This document shows positions 4,827 through 43,948 of a stretch of DNA of 44,860 nucleotides, piece after piece; the first letter of the stretch is position 1; every line of letters starts with the position of its first letter. The translations under genes and the position numbers were made by a program. The stretch is from Clostridiales bacterium (lineage in GTDB: Bacteria > Bacillota > Clostridia > Ch29): positions 1-44,860 of the forward strand of contig JAAYJF010000103.1 of NCBI GenBank assembly GCA_012523075.1. Reading direction: 5' to 3'. A model generated the notes under the pieces. That model did no database searches and was not told the origin of the DNA. It saw nothing but the letters and a program-made list of their open reading frames with translations.

Positions 4827-4855
4827 AAAGGAAAGAAAAAGCCAAAAACTTGTTT

Positions 4856-4925
4856 CACTCATATAATGGTGGGGATTGGCCCGCGAGTTTCTACTAGGTG
4901 ACCGTAAATCGCCTAACTATGGGTG
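4856..4925 (+). promoter_or_regulatory. Purine riboswitch aptamer, guanine type
   Basis: P1 is CACTCAT (4856-4862) with ATGGGTG (4919-4925). J1/2 is ATAAT. J2/3 has the invariant GTTTCTAC. P3 is AGGTG/CGCCT, with loop L3 ACCGTAAAT. The specificity base in CTATGGGTG is C, which pairs with guanine; adenine riboswitches have U there. P2 (TGGTGGG/CCCGCGA) shows the family's usual internal mismatch. L2 is GATTGG, one base shorter than the usual GATATGG. It should shut down the pur operon when guanine or hypoxanthine is plentiful. Confidence 0.93.
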
Positions 4926-4978
4926 AAAGCGGATTTGTATTTGCAGATTCGTGTACGGTTTTCGTACCCCCCGTGAAC

Positions 4979-5109: not shown

Positions 5110-5592
5110 ATGCCAAGGGTTGCGGTAGTAATGGGAAGCGATTCCGACTTTCCGGTTGTAGAAAGGGCAATTGAAATACTTAAGCGGTTTGACGTCCAAA
5201 GGGAGGTAAGGGTTATCTCAGCCCACAGGACTCCCGATGCGGCGGCGGAATTCGCAAAAGGAGCGCAGCAGTCGGGTGTGGAGGTAATAATAGCGGCCGC
5301 TGGGAAGGCCGCCCACCTTCCGGGGGTGCTGGCCGCCATGACACCGGTCCCGGTTATCGGTATACCGGTAAAGTCCTCCTTCATGGACGGGATGGATTCC
5401 CTTCTGTCCATAGTACAGATGCCAAGCGGAATACCGGTGGCCACCGTGGGAATAAACGGCAGCGAGAACGCTGCACTGCTGGCGGTGCAGATGCTATCGC
5501 TAAAATACCCGGAGCTGGCGGATAGGCTAAAGAACTATAGGGCTGAGATGGCAAGGAAGGTAGCGGAAAAGGACCGGGATATTAGGGGCTAG
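5110..5592 (+). CDS. purE: N5-carboxyaminoimidazole ribonucleotide mutase (class I PurE)
   Basis: This 160-residue enzyme moves the carboxylate of N5-CAIR to C4, giving CAIR in IMP synthesis. The Rossmann-like start is VAVVMGSDSDFPVV. The catalytic motif is SAHRTPD, and KAAHLPGVLAAMTPVPVIG plus SLLSIVQMPSGIPVATV are class I hallmarks. Class I enzymes normally need PurK to make N5-CAIR, and no purK is in this cluster. The ATG at 5110 is preferred over an upstream TTG at 5092, because AAGGGAG lies eight bases before it. It is the first gene after the riboswitch. Confidence 0.95.
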   Translation: MPRVAVVMGSDSDFPVVERAIEILKRFDVQREVRVISAHRTPDAAAEFAKGAQQSGVEVIIAAAGKAAHLPGVLAAMTPVPVIGIPVKSSFMDGMDSLLSIVQMPSGIPVATVGINGSENAALLAVQMLSLKYPELADRLKNYRAEMARKVAEKDRDIRG

Positions 5593-5631
5593 TGGTTAGT
5601 GAGCCGCAAGCCTAACCTGGCGCTTAACAAT

Positions 5632-5660
5632 TACGAACTATCAACTACCAACTACGAACT
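5632..5660 (+). repeat. Heptad repeat array 1 (between purE and purS)
   Basis: There are four consecutive 7-bp units: TACGAAC, TATCAAC, TACCAAC, TACGAAC. It lies in the transcribed spacer just before the purS ribosome site GGGAGGG. Confidence 0.75.
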
Positions 5661-5677
5661 TATGGGAGGGAGATAAC

Positions 5678-10219: not shown

Positions 10220-10422
10220 GGCTTCATGAATACTCGCTTTATGCAAAAATGCTTTAGAGGAAACTAAAGCCTTGCTTCTTGAAAATCCTAACGCATTTTA
10301 TGCGCCGTCCATGGCGCGAAAAGCCTGATTTGGCGTCCTGCCAAATCTACGGATTTTCTGCGAAGCTTCGGCAAGTTTCCTTGCTAAACCATTTCAAGTA
10401 TGCGCTAGCGTTTCATGAAGCC
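10220..10422 (+). repeat. 203-bp imperfect palindrome between purF and purM
   Basis: The ends are GGCTTCATGAA (10220-10230) and TTCATGAAGCC (10412-10422). The complementarity continues inward: TTTAGAGGAAACT against AGTTTCCTTGCTAAA, and GAAAATCC (10281-10288) with GGATTTTC (10351-10358). Two inner hairpins are GCGCC/GGCGC (10302-10317) and GATTTGGC/GCCAAATC (10327-10347). No reading frame is supported. It would fold into a long branched hairpin in the pur mRNA, and could be a small inverted-repeat insertion or an RNA stabiliser or processing site. Confidence 0.7.
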
Positions 10423-10423
10423 T

Positions 10424-10507
10424 ACGAACTACGAGCATTGACCCGGAACTTGTGACCCGGACTCTGTGATCTGTGAACTACGAACTACGAACTGTGATCT
10501 GTATAAG
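10424..10507 (+). repeat. Heptad repeat array 2 (before purM)
   Basis: Twelve consecutive 7-bp units stay in perfect register, including ACGAACT (four times or near), GTGATCT (twice), GTGAACT, GTGACCC and GGAACTT. The array directly follows the 203-bp palindrome and ends just before the purM ribosome site. Confidence 0.8.
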
Positions 10508-10522
10508 ACTGGGAGGGTTACT

Positions 10523-11560
10523 ATGGATAGGATGACCTACAGGGATGCCGGGGTGGATATAGACGCCGGCGCCCGGGCAGTGGAACTAATGAAGGAGCAC
10601 ATCAAGAAAACCCATACCCCCGGGATGCTGGGCGGCATAGGCGGCTTTGGCGGCGTCTTCCGGCCAGATTTTACCGGGTACAGGGACCCGGTGCTGGTTT
10701 CCGGGACCGACGGCGTGGGTACTAAACTGAAGATTGCCTTTCTGATGGACCGCCACGATACGGTGGGCATAGACTGCGTGGCCATGTGCGTAAACGATAT
10801 TGCCTGCATGGGGGCAAGGCCCTTATTCTTCCTTGATTACATAGCTATCGGAAGGCTGGAACCTGCTAAGGTAGCGGATATTGTGAAAGGCATATCCGAG
10901 GGCTGCTGCCAGGCGGGGTGCGCCCTTATAGGCGGTGAAACGGCGGAGATGCCTGACTTTTACAGACCCGGGGAATATGACATGGCGGGCTTTGCGGTAG
11001 GTATCGCTGACCGGGACGACATTATAGACGGGAGCAGCATACGGGCGGGGGACCTTTTAGTAGGGCTGCCCTCCTCAGGGCTACACAGCAATGGTTATTC
11101 GCTGGTAAGAAAGGTCCTCTTCGAAAAGGAGCGCATGAACGTCGAAACCTATGTGGAGGAATTGGGCTGCACCCTCGGCGAAGAACTCATTAAACCCACC
11201 AGTATTTATGTAAGACAGGTGTCAAAGGTTTTGAAAGCTGCCGACATTAAGGGCATAGTACATATAACCGGCGGCGGTTTTTACGAGAACATACCGAGGG
11301 TGATACCCGGTGGTTTGAAAGCCGATGTATACCTTGATGGCTGGGAAGTGCCAGCGGTGTTTAGGCTTATTCAGGGCCGGGGCGGCATTGAGGGGGAGGA
11401 AATGTACAGGACCTTCAATATGGGAATAGGCCTTGTAATGGTTGCGGCACCGGACCAGTCAGACCGGCTTCTTAAGGAGCTAAAGGACGACGGTGCCAGG
11501 GTTATAGGCAGGATATCCCAAGGAACCGGAGGAGTTGAACTATGGCCGGGAAAAGTATAG
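10523..11560 (+). CDS. purM: Phosphoribosylformylglycinamidine cyclo-ligase (AIR synthase)
   Basis: PurM closes the imidazole ring, converting FGAM to AIR with ATP. The 345-residue protein carries MTYRDAGVDIDAG at the N-terminus, VLVSGTDGVGTKLKIA, CVAMCVNDIACMGARPLFFLDY and ALIGGETAEMPDFY, all family signatures. The frame is open upstream into the heptad array, but ATG 10523 has GGGAGG about six bases before it and gives the normal N-terminus. It overlaps purN by 19 bp. The 334-bp gap after purF holds only the palindrome and the heptad array. Confidence 0.96.
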   Translation: MDRMTYRDAGVDIDAGARAVELMKEHIKKTHTPGMLGGIGGFGGVFRPDFTGYRDPVLVSGTDGVGTKLKIAFLMDRHDTVGIDCVAMCVNDIACMGARPLFFLDYIAIGRLEPAKVADIVKGISEGCCQAGCALIGGETAEMPDFYRPGEYDMAGFAVGIADRDDIIDGSSIRAGDLLVGLPSSGLHSNGYSLVRKVLFEKERMNVETYVEELGCTLGEELIKPTSIYVRQVSKVLKAADIKGIVHITGGGFYENIPRVIPGGLKADVYLDGWEVPAVFRLIQGRGGIEGEEMYRTFNMGIGLVMVAAPDQSDRLLKELKDDGARVIGRISQGTGGVELWPGKV

Positions 11561-12207: not shown

Positions 12208-13733
12208 TAAGTGTTTCGAACAAAAACGGTATTATAGAGTTTGCGAAGGGGCTGGTGGACCTGGGCTACGAGATTATTTCGACCGGCGGTACCGCCAGTA
12301 CGCTGGAGCAGGCGGGAATAGCCGTTACCGGCGTTTCGGATATCACCGGTTTTCCCGAATGCCTGGACGGAAGGGTGAAGACTTTGCATCCCAATATCCA
12401 TGCGGGGCTGCTTGCCAGGAGAGACAACAGCGACCACATGAAACAGATTGAAGACCTTGGAATAAAGCCCATCGACCTGGTGGCTATTAACCTATATCCC
12501 TTTAAGGAGACTATACAAAAGCCTGGTGTGAGCCTTGAGGAGGCCATCGAAAATATTGACATTGGCGGGCCTACCATGCTGAGGGCCGCCGCTAAGAACT
12601 ACCAGGACGTGGCGGTGGTGGTGGACCCTGCGGATTACGGAAGAATTGTTGAGGAAATAGCAAAGCATGGGGAAGTATCCGTCGAGACCAAGTTTGAACT
12701 ATGCGCAAAGGTATTTATGCACACCGCCCACTACGATGCTTTAATCACCGATTATTTTGGTCGTAAAAAGGGTGTTCATTTTCCGGAGTACCTCACGCTG
12801 ACTTACGAGAAGGTTCAGGACCTCCGCTATGGTGAAAATCCGCACCAGAGGGCGGCCTTTTACAGGGAAATTGGCAAAAGGGAAGGGACGCTGGTGGAAG
12901 CCCGGCAACTGCACGGCAAGGAACTCTCCTTCAACAACATAAACGATACCAACGGTGCCCTGGAGCTTTTAAAGGAGTTTGAACCGTCAACACCGGTGGT
13001 TATTGGAGTTAAGCATACCAATCCCTGCGGAGTGGGAATGGGAGATACCATTTTTGAGGCCTGGCAGAAGGCCTTCCAGGCAGACCCGGTTTCTATATTC
13101 GGCGGGATTGTGGCGATAAACGGCCAAGTGGATGAGGAGACGGCAAAGGGTATTAATGAAATATTCGTGGAGATAGTGGTGGCTCCCTGCTACACCGATG
13201 GGGCGCTGGAAATACTAAAGGGCAAGAAGAACATAAGAATCCTAAAGCTTGATAACATAGAAAATACCAAGGCCAGTTCGGTAATTGACTTCAAAAAAGT
13301 AAACGGCGGCCTGCTGGTGCAGGACAGCAACCTTTTGCTACTGCAGGATGATTTAAAGGTGGTTACTAGGGAGAAGCCGGATGCGGCAGCCCTGCAGGAC
13401 CTACTGTTTGCCTGGAGGGTGGTAAAACATATTAAATCCAACGGGATAGTGCTGGCAAAGGATGGACAGACCCTTGGCATAGGCCCTGGCCAGGTGAACA
13501 GGATATGGGCGGTAGAGAACGCGATAAAACAGTCCAGGTTTGACCTTGAGGGCGCTGTGATGGCCTCCGATGCCTTCTTCCCCTTCCCCGACTGCGTCGA
13601 AGCGGCGGCCAGGGCCGGCATAAAGGCCATTATCCAGCCGGGCGGGTCGCTAAAGGACGGGGAATCGATAGAAGCGGCGGACAGGCTGGGGGTCGCGATG
13701 GTGCTTACCGGCATGAGGCACTTCAAGCACTAG
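12189..13733 (+). CDS. purH: Bifunctional AICAR formyltransferase / IMP cyclohydrolase
   Basis: PurH performs the last two steps to IMP. It is full length at 514 residues. The N-terminal cyclohydrolase domain shows [34 protein letters not shown] and INLYPF. The C-terminal formyltransferase domain has the catalytic [21 protein letters not shown] and [18 protein letters not shown] 12189 follows GGAGGTGCGTT and overlaps purN. The next gene, purD, follows heptad array 3. Confidence 0.97.
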
Positions 13734-13774
13734 GTTAGTGGCTAGTGGATAATCACTAACCACTAACCACTAAC
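13733..13774 (+). repeat. Heptad repeat array 3, self-complementary (purH-purD)
   Basis: Units GGTTAGT, GGCTAGT, GGATAAT are followed in the same 7-bp register by CACTAAC three times. The second half is the reverse complement of the first, so the transcript can form a hairpin directly before the purD ribosome site. Confidence 0.8.
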
Positions 13775-17100: not shown

Positions 17101-17240
17101 ATGGGGACACACCCTATTGTGATGTGTGAGGTGAGATATTAGATGTGGGATTTTAGCATAGCTTGGAAGGGTTGTCCTAGCTCCCACTTCCCTCATCCCA
17201 TATCCCACTTCCCAGAAGGATATCCTCATCGGTGTCCCAT
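17101..17240 (+). repeat. REP-like arms enclosing a heptad array (array 4)
   Basis: An ATGGGGACACACC arm at 17101-17113 is matched by an inverted GGTGTCCCAT near 17231-17240. Between them, 17119-17153 contains heptads GTGATGT, GTGAGGT, GAGATAT, TAGATGT, GGGATTT. The interval 17182-17216 contains TCCCACT, TCCCTCA, TCCCATA, TCCCACT, TCCCAGA, roughly the reverse complement type. No gene is visible in 17098-17469. Confidence 0.65.
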
Positions 17241-17286: not shown

Positions 17287-17345
17287 ATTCAGACAGGAGC
17301 AGACAGGAGAACCGTCCCCATGTCTTTTTTCGACAATAATATATA

Positions 17346-40575: not shown

Positions 40576-40576
40576 A

Positions 40577-40639
40577 GGTCACAGGTAACAGTTCATAGTT
40601 GGTAGCTCGTAGTTCGTAGTTTCTGAGCCACAGGTATCA
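40577..40639 (+). repeat. Heptad repeat array 5
   Basis: Nine in-register 7-bp units directly follow the stop codon: GGTCACA, GGTAACA, GTTCATA, GTTGGTA, GCTCGTA, GTTCGTA, GTTTCTG, AGCCACA, GGTATCA. Several are reverse complements of units in array 2. Confidence 0.75.
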
Positions 40640-40642
40640 ATC

Positions 40643-40747
40643 GGGGACATACCTCAGCAAGGAATTCTGATGGGGACATACCGCGACAAGGAATACCCAC
40701 AAAAAGCGGTGTGTCGCCTTACCTTAATTCAGCAGAGGTGTGTCCCC
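40643..40747 (+). repeat. REP-like nested palindrome with GGGGACATACC arms
   Basis: The outer arms are GGGGACATACCTC (40643-40655) and GAGGTGTGTCCCC (40735-40747). The inner arms are GGGGACATACCGC (40672-40684) and GCGGTGTGTCGCC (40706-40718). The nested pairs predict one long hairpin. Related single arms occur near 17101 and 36877, and the GGGGGACGGTTCC terminator word is similar. Confidence 0.75.
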
Positions 40748-40764
40748 ATTCCTTAAACAGCATT

Positions 40765-40905
40765 TTCACGGATCACAGGTCACGGATTATTAGCCTCTTC
40801 GTTTTAGACGGAGGGGCATTCGGTTTTTTTGGAACATTACGCTGTCGATTTAGGTCAAATGATTTGGTTGGTAGTTTGTAGCTGGTAGTTGGTAGGTGTT
40901 GGGGT
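40765..40905 (+). repeat. Heptad repeat arrays 6 and 7
   Basis: The interval 40765-40785 holds TTCACGG, ATCACAG, GTCACGG. The interval 40864-40905 holds TTGGTTG, GTAGTTT, GTAGCTG, GTAGTTG, GTAGGTG, TTGGGGT. Between and after them up to 41121 I see no gene; TATAAT at 41038-41043 may belong to the amidase promoter but has no clear -35 partner. Confidence 0.65.
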
Positions 40906-41121
40906 AAAGCTTTCGTATCAAGGAATACACGTCGCCGACCATTGGCCGCTATATTACACTGTTATTACAGCAGTATTACAGGGGCATTAAATTTACATAA
41001 TTGAACTAAAACCAACAAAAAATAGGGGGTTTTATGATATAATAAGTCGAAAACACGTGATAGAAAACGGAGTATTGGACACGTGATACAAGGTATTTTT
41101 TTACATCAGGGGGTTATGGAA

Positions 41122-43782: not shown

Positions 43783-43832
43783 AAATCATAGCGTCCAATC
43801 CTTCCTAATATATTTTAACAGGGGACCAATAT

Positions 43833-43948
43833 GGGAAGTGGGAAGTGGGAAGTGGGAAGTGGGAAGTGGGAAGTGAGAAGCGGGAATGATGAAGCAAAGA
43901 ATCTAAGCTAAAAATCCCATCTCTGACAATCCATCTTCAATATCCCAG
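43833..43948 (+). repeat. Heptad repeat array 8, near-perfect and self-complementary
   Basis: Six identical GGGAAGT units (43833-43874) plus GAGAAGC are followed, after a spacer, by ATCCCAT, CTCTGAC, AATCCAT, CTTCAAT, ATCCCAG (43914-43948), units of the opposite orientation. It lies immediately upstream of gerM. Confidence 0.85.

Follow-up and report, generated by a model that had tools for sequence, protein, structure and literature searches.

We consider it probable that the heptanucleotide arrays in the genome of this Clostridiales bacterium are the arms of short, dispersed, non-coding dyad elements, which were inserted into intergenic spacers and whose 7-bp units have been turning over since. 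This main point was missed by a sequence-only reading of the window (the whole stretch that was analysed, 44,860 nucleotides, contig C54 in our numbering), which had described degenerate period-7 arrays with differing words at eight or more sites. In the process that we propose, an element of about 40-250 bp with head-to-head arms would enter a spacer between genes in a step resembling transposition, presumably mediated by an enzyme acting in trans, and each arm would then gain, lose and swap whole 7-bp units by local duplication and deletion, through slippage or unequal exchange. The CT and the A of every unit would be held fixed, either by a factor that recognises them or by their being needed for the unit-exchange step itself, and the elements may well have no function for the host. 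Operon spacers of the genome, three of them in the pur operon alone, would on this account be undergoing remodelling by small inserted elements.

The source genome (G000; 2.04 Mb in 185 contigs, 99.7% complete) was compared with a sister species of the same genus (G001, ~85% identity to G000), a sister genus of the same family (G004), the further family relatives G005, G002 and G003, with G002 as the likely outgroup, and a genome from an unrelated family of the phylum (G128); L numbers denote sampled loci or stretches. The comparisons are between species, above the strain level, the assemblies are metagenomic or fragmentary, and genes were called by simple and crude ORF rules.

A local period scan of the window (scoring +1/-1.5, threshold score >=11) returned seven period-7 segments (Table 1), against a mean of 0.017 expected from 60 order-2 Markov resamples, and zero or one segment at each of the other periods between 4 and 13. 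The 7-bp period is thus real, as had been claimed, and it recurs across the genome and the family. Sampled stretches beyond the window were scored at >=12; all G004 stretches and most of those from G000 had been picked for holding matches. At this score, 177 kb of G000 that were unselected for arrays and included the window contained six period-7 segments, all of them inside the window, along with four at period 9, five at period 21 and zero to three at other periods. The 257 kb of G000 selected for matches held 21 period-7 segments. The 400 kb of G004, likewise selected for matches, held 70, whereas no other period between 4 and 13 exceeded two. For none of the three sets did resampling produce a period-7 segment. 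By our crude gene calls, 7-11% of array bases fall in predicted genes, versus a gene coverage of 83-87%. The arrays therefore share with the long simple sequence repeats (LSSR) and short tandemly repeated repetitive (STRR) sequences a tandem 7-bp period that is far above chance and mainly intergenic.

Table 1 Heptad elements and associated features of the window (segments: period-7 segments with score >=11)
Feature	Position	Strand	Period-7 segment	Location	Composition
Purine riboswitch RF00167 (Rfam, 79 bits)	4839-4939			Upstream of purE / pur operon	
Dyad element	5585-5661	.	5636-5660 (right arm)	purE-purS spacer	Left arm CTAGTGG TTAGTGA; core AGCCGCAAGCCTAACCTGGCGCTTAACAATT; right arm CTATCAA CTACCAA CTACGAA
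Two outlying units, then non-periodic DNA	10421-10462	.		Precedes the 10463 array	CTACGAA CTACGAG (CTACGAACTACGAGC)
Right-type (CTR) array	10463-10502	+	10463-10502	Immediately upstream of purM ribosome-binding site	CTGTGAT CTGTGAA CTACGAA CTACGAA CTGTGAT CTGT
Short dyad	13733-13774	.	13733-13774	purH-purD spacer	GGTTAGTGGCTAGTGG-AT-AATCACTAACCACTAACCACTAAC
Second-family element	17119-17214	.	17182-17214	Between D-2-hydroxyacid dehydrogenase gene and glnA	G-rich left words TGTGAGG/TGGGATT; core TTTTAGCATAGCTTGGAAGGGTTGTCCTA; right words TCCCACT/TCCCATA
Left-type (YAG) array	40576-40621	+	40576-40621	Immediately 3' of HypE/ThiL-like gene stop	AGGTCAC AGGTAAC AGTTCAT AGTTGGT AGCTCGT AGTTCGT AGTT
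Sub-threshold site, not counted	40765-40790	.			GGATCACAGGTCACGGATTATTAG (GGATCACAGGTCACGGAT), ~2.5 units
Left-type array, then half core	40867-40910	+	40867-40898		Half core GTAGGTGTTGGGGTAAAGCTTTC; resembles L045 and L049 copies
Second-family dyad	43832-43945	.	43832-43886		Left arm (TGGGAAG)x7-8 at 43832-43886, then AT-rich core; right arm degenerate, C-rich: TCCCATC TCTGACA ATCCATC TTCAATA TCCCA

The earlier list of sites needs some amendment. Seven segments exceed the threshold, and the site at 40765 falls below it; the array that had been placed at 10424 begins properly at 10463, the preceding stretch offering two units and then non-periodic DNA that weakly matches the right-hand half of the family's core. 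Four arrays had been assigned to the pur operon or its vicinity; three arrays do lie inside it (purE-purS, purF-purM and purH-purD), and the 17119 element lies next to glnA. Since the purE frame ends on a TAG (5590-5592) that lies inside the 5585-5661 element and was apparently supplied by it, the insertion would have altered the C-terminus of PurE by a few residues. Several contigs of G000 end inside heptad arrays (L039 1-46, start of C3; L044 6516-6556, end of C48; L042 2-27, start of C32; L048 1-27, start of C161), and C3 and C48 carry identical alternating words at their array ends; because of these contig ends, the assembly probably breaks at arrays, which are then likely to be undercounted.

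Elements of the family share a layout of left-arm words NTNNYAG, an often conserved core and right-arm words CTRNNAN. In arrays found by period alone, the successive positions of C T R N N A N are conserved at.93.92.71.61.59.84.62, and CTR belongs to the consensus in 53/53 of them. The words do vary, as had been noted, but not arbitrarily: CT and A are conserved in phase at 0.84-0.93, against 0.59-0.71 at the other four positions, and four genera or species of the family draw on one and the same short list of words, which contradicts the proposal that the period is maintained while the sequence is free. The two arms use different lists, with CTGGCAA, CTGGTAA, CTGATAA and CTGTCAT on the left and CTACGAA, CTGTGAT, CTACCAA, CTGCGAT and CTAGCAC on the right. 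CTG and CTA are also the start sites of DnaG primase, which the CTR words brought up as a candidate; the second family, described below, has no CTR. Many cores in G004 have the same length of 43 bp. The core model matched 120 times in G004, a count that takes in palindromic copies on both strands and stands for dozens of sites, five times in G005, three times in G003 and once in G001. G000, where the core is only partly conserved, had no full match to it; half-core matches are present in G000 and G001.

A second family, devoid of CTR words, combines left words TGGGAAG/TGAGAGG and right words TCCCACT with a core of its own, and was found in the window (17119 and 43832), in L060 and in G004 (L087 5694-5790, related to the 17119 element). 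The left half of the 17119 element (TGTGATG TGTGAGG TGAGATA TTAGATG TGGGATT) is too degenerate to pass the threshold alone, and the right half passes; we count the 108-bp element as real because a 75% identical copy occurs elsewhere in G000 (L060 5891-5998). The G-rich arm at 43832-43886 has the GGG-N4 spacing of reported G-quadruplex heptamers. With GGG every 7 bp, this (TGGGAAG)n arm resembles the GGGNATC repeats known from Xanthomonas and Nostoc (Rehm 2015, PMC4692102), which also have the same polarity relative to genes; those, however, prefer four units of one word, whereas the G-rich family here is one of two and possesses a core and a C-rich right arm.

Insertion is indicated by the comparison of orthologous spacers. 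Five relatives are syntenic with G000 across the pur region, and the elements at 5585-5661 and 13733-13774 are missing from the ~85% identical G001, the latter also from G002 and G003. In the purH-purD spacer, G004 and G005 have different heptad elements, G002 a REP and G003 nothing. The 17119 element and the 40576 array (an 86% match to the L056 array over 50 bp) are likewise absent in G001. Cleanest of all is an 88-bp dyad at L054 12654-12741, which sits between GGTCAA and AAGGAGG where G001 reads GGTCAA|AGGAGG; the outgroup-like G002 has no array there either. Between genomes as distant as G000 and G001 (~85% identity), a deletion might also account for the difference at some of these sites. 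Such presence-absence polymorphism between close relatives is MITE-like. The combination of terminal inverted repeats and target-site duplication that marks MITEs was not seen: no duplication of more than 2 bp is visible at the clean L054 site, and the inverted arrays have no fixed termini. An older element, with five left-arm units in G003 and ~10 in G004, lies behind one fumarase-subunit gene common to both genomes; the second fumarase copy of G004 lacks it, as do G001 and G002.

Turnover of units is evident within the arms. At the site upstream of purM (10464) an array occupies the same point in G000 and G001 with different units in another order; the orthologous arrays of these two congeneric species differ by whole units. 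Identity between units is 0.087 at lag 1 and 0.015 at lag 5, compared with 0.042 after shuffling within arrays; together with the differences at 10464, this decay bears out the claim of a shared process that works at many loci in 7-bp steps. Because neighbours are the most identical and single-base differences between them are mostly C/G swaps at one position (88/208), the data point to existing words being duplicated and exchanged rather than freshly mutated.

The closeness of neighbouring units would also be expected from ordinary heptanucleotide microsatellites, arising by slippage from a chance heptamer pair, as has been suggested for prokaryotic LSSR, with 7 nt as a favoured slip length of the replicative polymerase, an explanation we regard as unlikely, though it deserves the most serious hearing. 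Pure runs do exist elsewhere (TAGTTGT*17 TAGTTGG*18 in L199, GGTTCTT*11 in L141), and heptanucleotides are reported to be the most frequent class (Mrazek 2007, cited in PMC4679880). The 7-bp unit, the intergenic position and the patchy taxonomy are features that our arrays have in common with the LSSR (Mrazek et al. 2007) and with cyanobacterial STRR. Slippage from a chance seed should nevertheless leave one word per array, and we found compound words on the CTRNNAN grammar, head-to-head arms, and a word list and conserved core that are common to unlinked loci and across genera. Whole elements were cleanly inserted, arm polarity is universal, and the neighbour differences, being mainly C/G at one position and not transitions, imply that words are shuffled. 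Plain slippage predicts neither the 50:0 polarity described below, nor a CT...A frame with free positions, nor whole-element insertion.

The order of the arms is invariant. All 44 G004 dyads in the arm comparison run from YAG to CTR and none from CTR to YAG; with arms defined as YAG and CTR, the order is 50:0 (four dyads in G000, 21 in G004, nine in G128 and 16 in other genomes). The last 16, among the matches listed, stem from ~14 genomes, including Tychonema, Rivularia, Acidobacteria, Chloroflexi, Omnitrophota and Microgenomates; one of them, L202, is the same sequence as a G128 locus. Copies within a genome family are non-independent, and counted by lineage the polarity amounts to ~15-17 events. 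When the YAG/CTR rule is dropped, the GT-rich partners (>50% G+T) of CA-rich seeds are inner in 18 cases and outer in none among the matches listed, where about half of the non-CTR inner arms carry YAG; a strict YAG/CTR rule for all bacteria is not claimed. Among the same matches, 72/110 seed runs have no inner partner arm, and such single arms in the wider sample could be plain microsatellites. The G128 loci L305-L310 contain dense heptad dyads with words of their own (AGCTACC, AACTATG, TCAGTCG) and a recurring core, GCTGGCTTGCAAGCCTCTCAAAGACTAAAGGAACTACCC.

Single arms, in turn, are oriented with respect to genes: co-directional spacers have YAG arms close to stops and CTR arms closer to starts (53/7 vs 25/33; Fisher p 2e-7). 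Selection for gene polarity is insufficient as a cause of dyad polarity, because dyads in convergent spacers retain the same order (7:0, small numbers), as do those in divergent spacers. The orientation of single arms also speaks for post-transcriptional RNA elements, stems or leaders of the kind proposed for TAACTGA repeats, and Rehm et al. (PMC4692102) give the same polarity for GGGNATC heptamers. We nonetheless judge this reading very improbable, as dyad polarity is indifferent to the type of spacer and the arms are non-complementary at their variable positions. These match less across the arms of one element than between elements, in registers -3 to +3, and the core folds weakly (6 pairs, -3.1 kcal/mol). 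An Rfam scan of the window found the purine riboswitch only and no structured RNA at the arrays, nor did we observe complementary arms or a covarying stem. The fold-back of the RNA that had been suggested applies to the 13733 dyad, which is 83% self-complementary, but is no general rule, and fold-back is not the property being maintained, because the arms are not complementary beyond the CT...A grammar; the RNA-stem hypothesis was rejected on the arm comparison and the weak core folding.

TAACTGA repeats themselves (MacGregor 2015, PMC4679880), reported from Beggiatoaceae, Cyanobacteria and Bacteroidetes, often lie just upstream of starts and are split by related 7-bp words. Read from its CT, TAACTGA is CTGATAA, a word of G004, where it is in the minority. 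Unlike our elements, they are described as a single word in direct repetition, a lone indirect repeat excepted, lack core and dyad, and have up to six units in the main genome.

A GT to CA polarity would also result if a telomerase- or DRT10-like enzyme extended both 3' ends at a break by templated synthesis of GT-rich heptamers and the two extended ends were then joined head to head. Bacterial reverse transcriptases that make tandem-repeat DNA exist (DRT10, PMC12632851). We find this scenario scarcely credible: a conserved core is not expected from a random join, and synthesis of this type is disfavoured because the array-bearing genomes G000 (99.7% complete), G001 and G005 yielded no reverse transcriptase in a PF00078 search, an over-divergent or lost enzyme excepted, while G003, without period-7 pattern matches, has a PF00078 protein.

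If the elements were inserted, a mobiliser has to be sought, and the anatomy suggests one. RAYTs cleave at CT, guided by the AG of GTAG (PMC8266576), and a Y1 HUH transposase of this kind might cut at the CT of each unit, guided by the AG 5' of the core hairpin, and rejoin at another CT, so moving elements and exchanging units in 7-nt steps. Small palindromic intergenic repeats with AG 5' and CT 3' of a hairpin-like core are indeed what REP/REPIN and our elements have in common, the latter bearing YAG and CT around a palindromic core on both strands, and PF01797 proteins occur in 7/7 genomes searched. Still, we rate this model as improbable. REPs are 20-40 bp long and have no heptad arms; most RAYT genes adjoin GGGGAC-type REPs, those of the family's own genomes included, and none is flanked by heptad arrays; RAYTs are present in the array-free G002, no RAYT clade tracks array presence, and the 7-nt step is left without explanation. 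The REP/REPIN arrangement, in which a short hairpin has a GTAG or GGAG foot and its cognate RAYT is flanked by the repeats, was not seen for our elements, and no heptad arrays were seen around the IS200-type or RAYT genes examined. A RAYT/REPtron mobiliser was hence rejected for want of genomic association despite its suggestive anatomy, and no mobiliser emerged among the RAYT, IS200-type and PF00078 candidates examined. In this family, most RAYT-type PF01797 genes (L234, L235, L266, L272, L274) have inverted copies of GGGGACGGTTCTYTTG or GGGGACGTACC on their flanks, and copies of the GGGGACGGTTCTYTTG-type repeat (CAGACAGGAGAACCGTCCCCATGTC) occur in the window at 17287-17330.

An in-phase CT...A constraint with free positions between could also reflect a series of sites that are bound by a regulator or nucleoid protein and kept by selection, and CT/AG is retained in 11/11 units of the old fumarase element of G003. 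Paired sites on opposite strands have been described in Geobacter metallireducens, whose class 3 'global regulator binding sites' consist of five tandem MTYCTGA heptamers (PMC2700814); the CTG heptamers, the pairs in opposite orientation and the variable gap are alike, whereas that class is short, numbers ~8 pairs, is read as binding sites and is not known to insert or to turn over its units. We are doubtful of such a role here, and somewhat more so than of a RAYT: the context is not regulon-like, the types of spacer follow the genome, presence varies between close species and we saw no constant placement with respect to promoters. Inserted dyad elements with local exchange of units remain our preferred account.

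Within the family, matches to the period-7 pattern number 204 in G004, 48 in G000, 20 in G005, five in G001 and 0 in both G002 and G003. Three consecutive CTACSAA words occur in only 4/398 genomes of the phylum, G000 included. The exact 25-base array was found in more than 110 stretches from many phyla, a lower bound, in a set that was seeded with one word. Similar heptamers had been expected in cyanobacteria, and CTACSAA arrays are indeed present in Tychonema, Rivularia, Hormoscilla and Chamaesiphon. A phage origin was discounted, as the word array occurs in just 13 of 2.9 million viral contigs.

Heptanucleotide repeats as such are already known (STRR, LSSR, TAACTGA, GGGNATC), and in decades of bacterial records the number seven has had no explanation; the dyad grammar and the polarity look new, and no earlier description of dyads with heptad arms was found in the open-licence literature. 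It is conceivable, though we think it rather unlikely, that many bacterial heptanucleotide repeats belong to one mobile dyad class, GT-rich/YAG on the left and CA-rich/CTR on the right in 7-bp register, on which a common type of enzyme acts at AG and CT once per unit. If true, this would explain both the period-7 excess and the polarity shared across phyla.

Other repeats accompany the heptad elements. A dispersed repeat of the form (AAGGA)ATGGGGACACACC ... GGTGTGTCCCC(ATTCCTT) is located at 17101-17117 and 40645-40756 of the window, next to several of the heptad elements, as it also is in G004. Positions 721-775 hold a third dispersed repeat (GTCATCCTGAGCGAAGGATCTT...), which is also present in G001. 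The purH-purD spacer of G005 (about 10354-10717; L226 2400-2730) contains a 36-bp tandem array of GATTCTTCGGGCTTGGCCCTCAGAACGACAGAGTCG.
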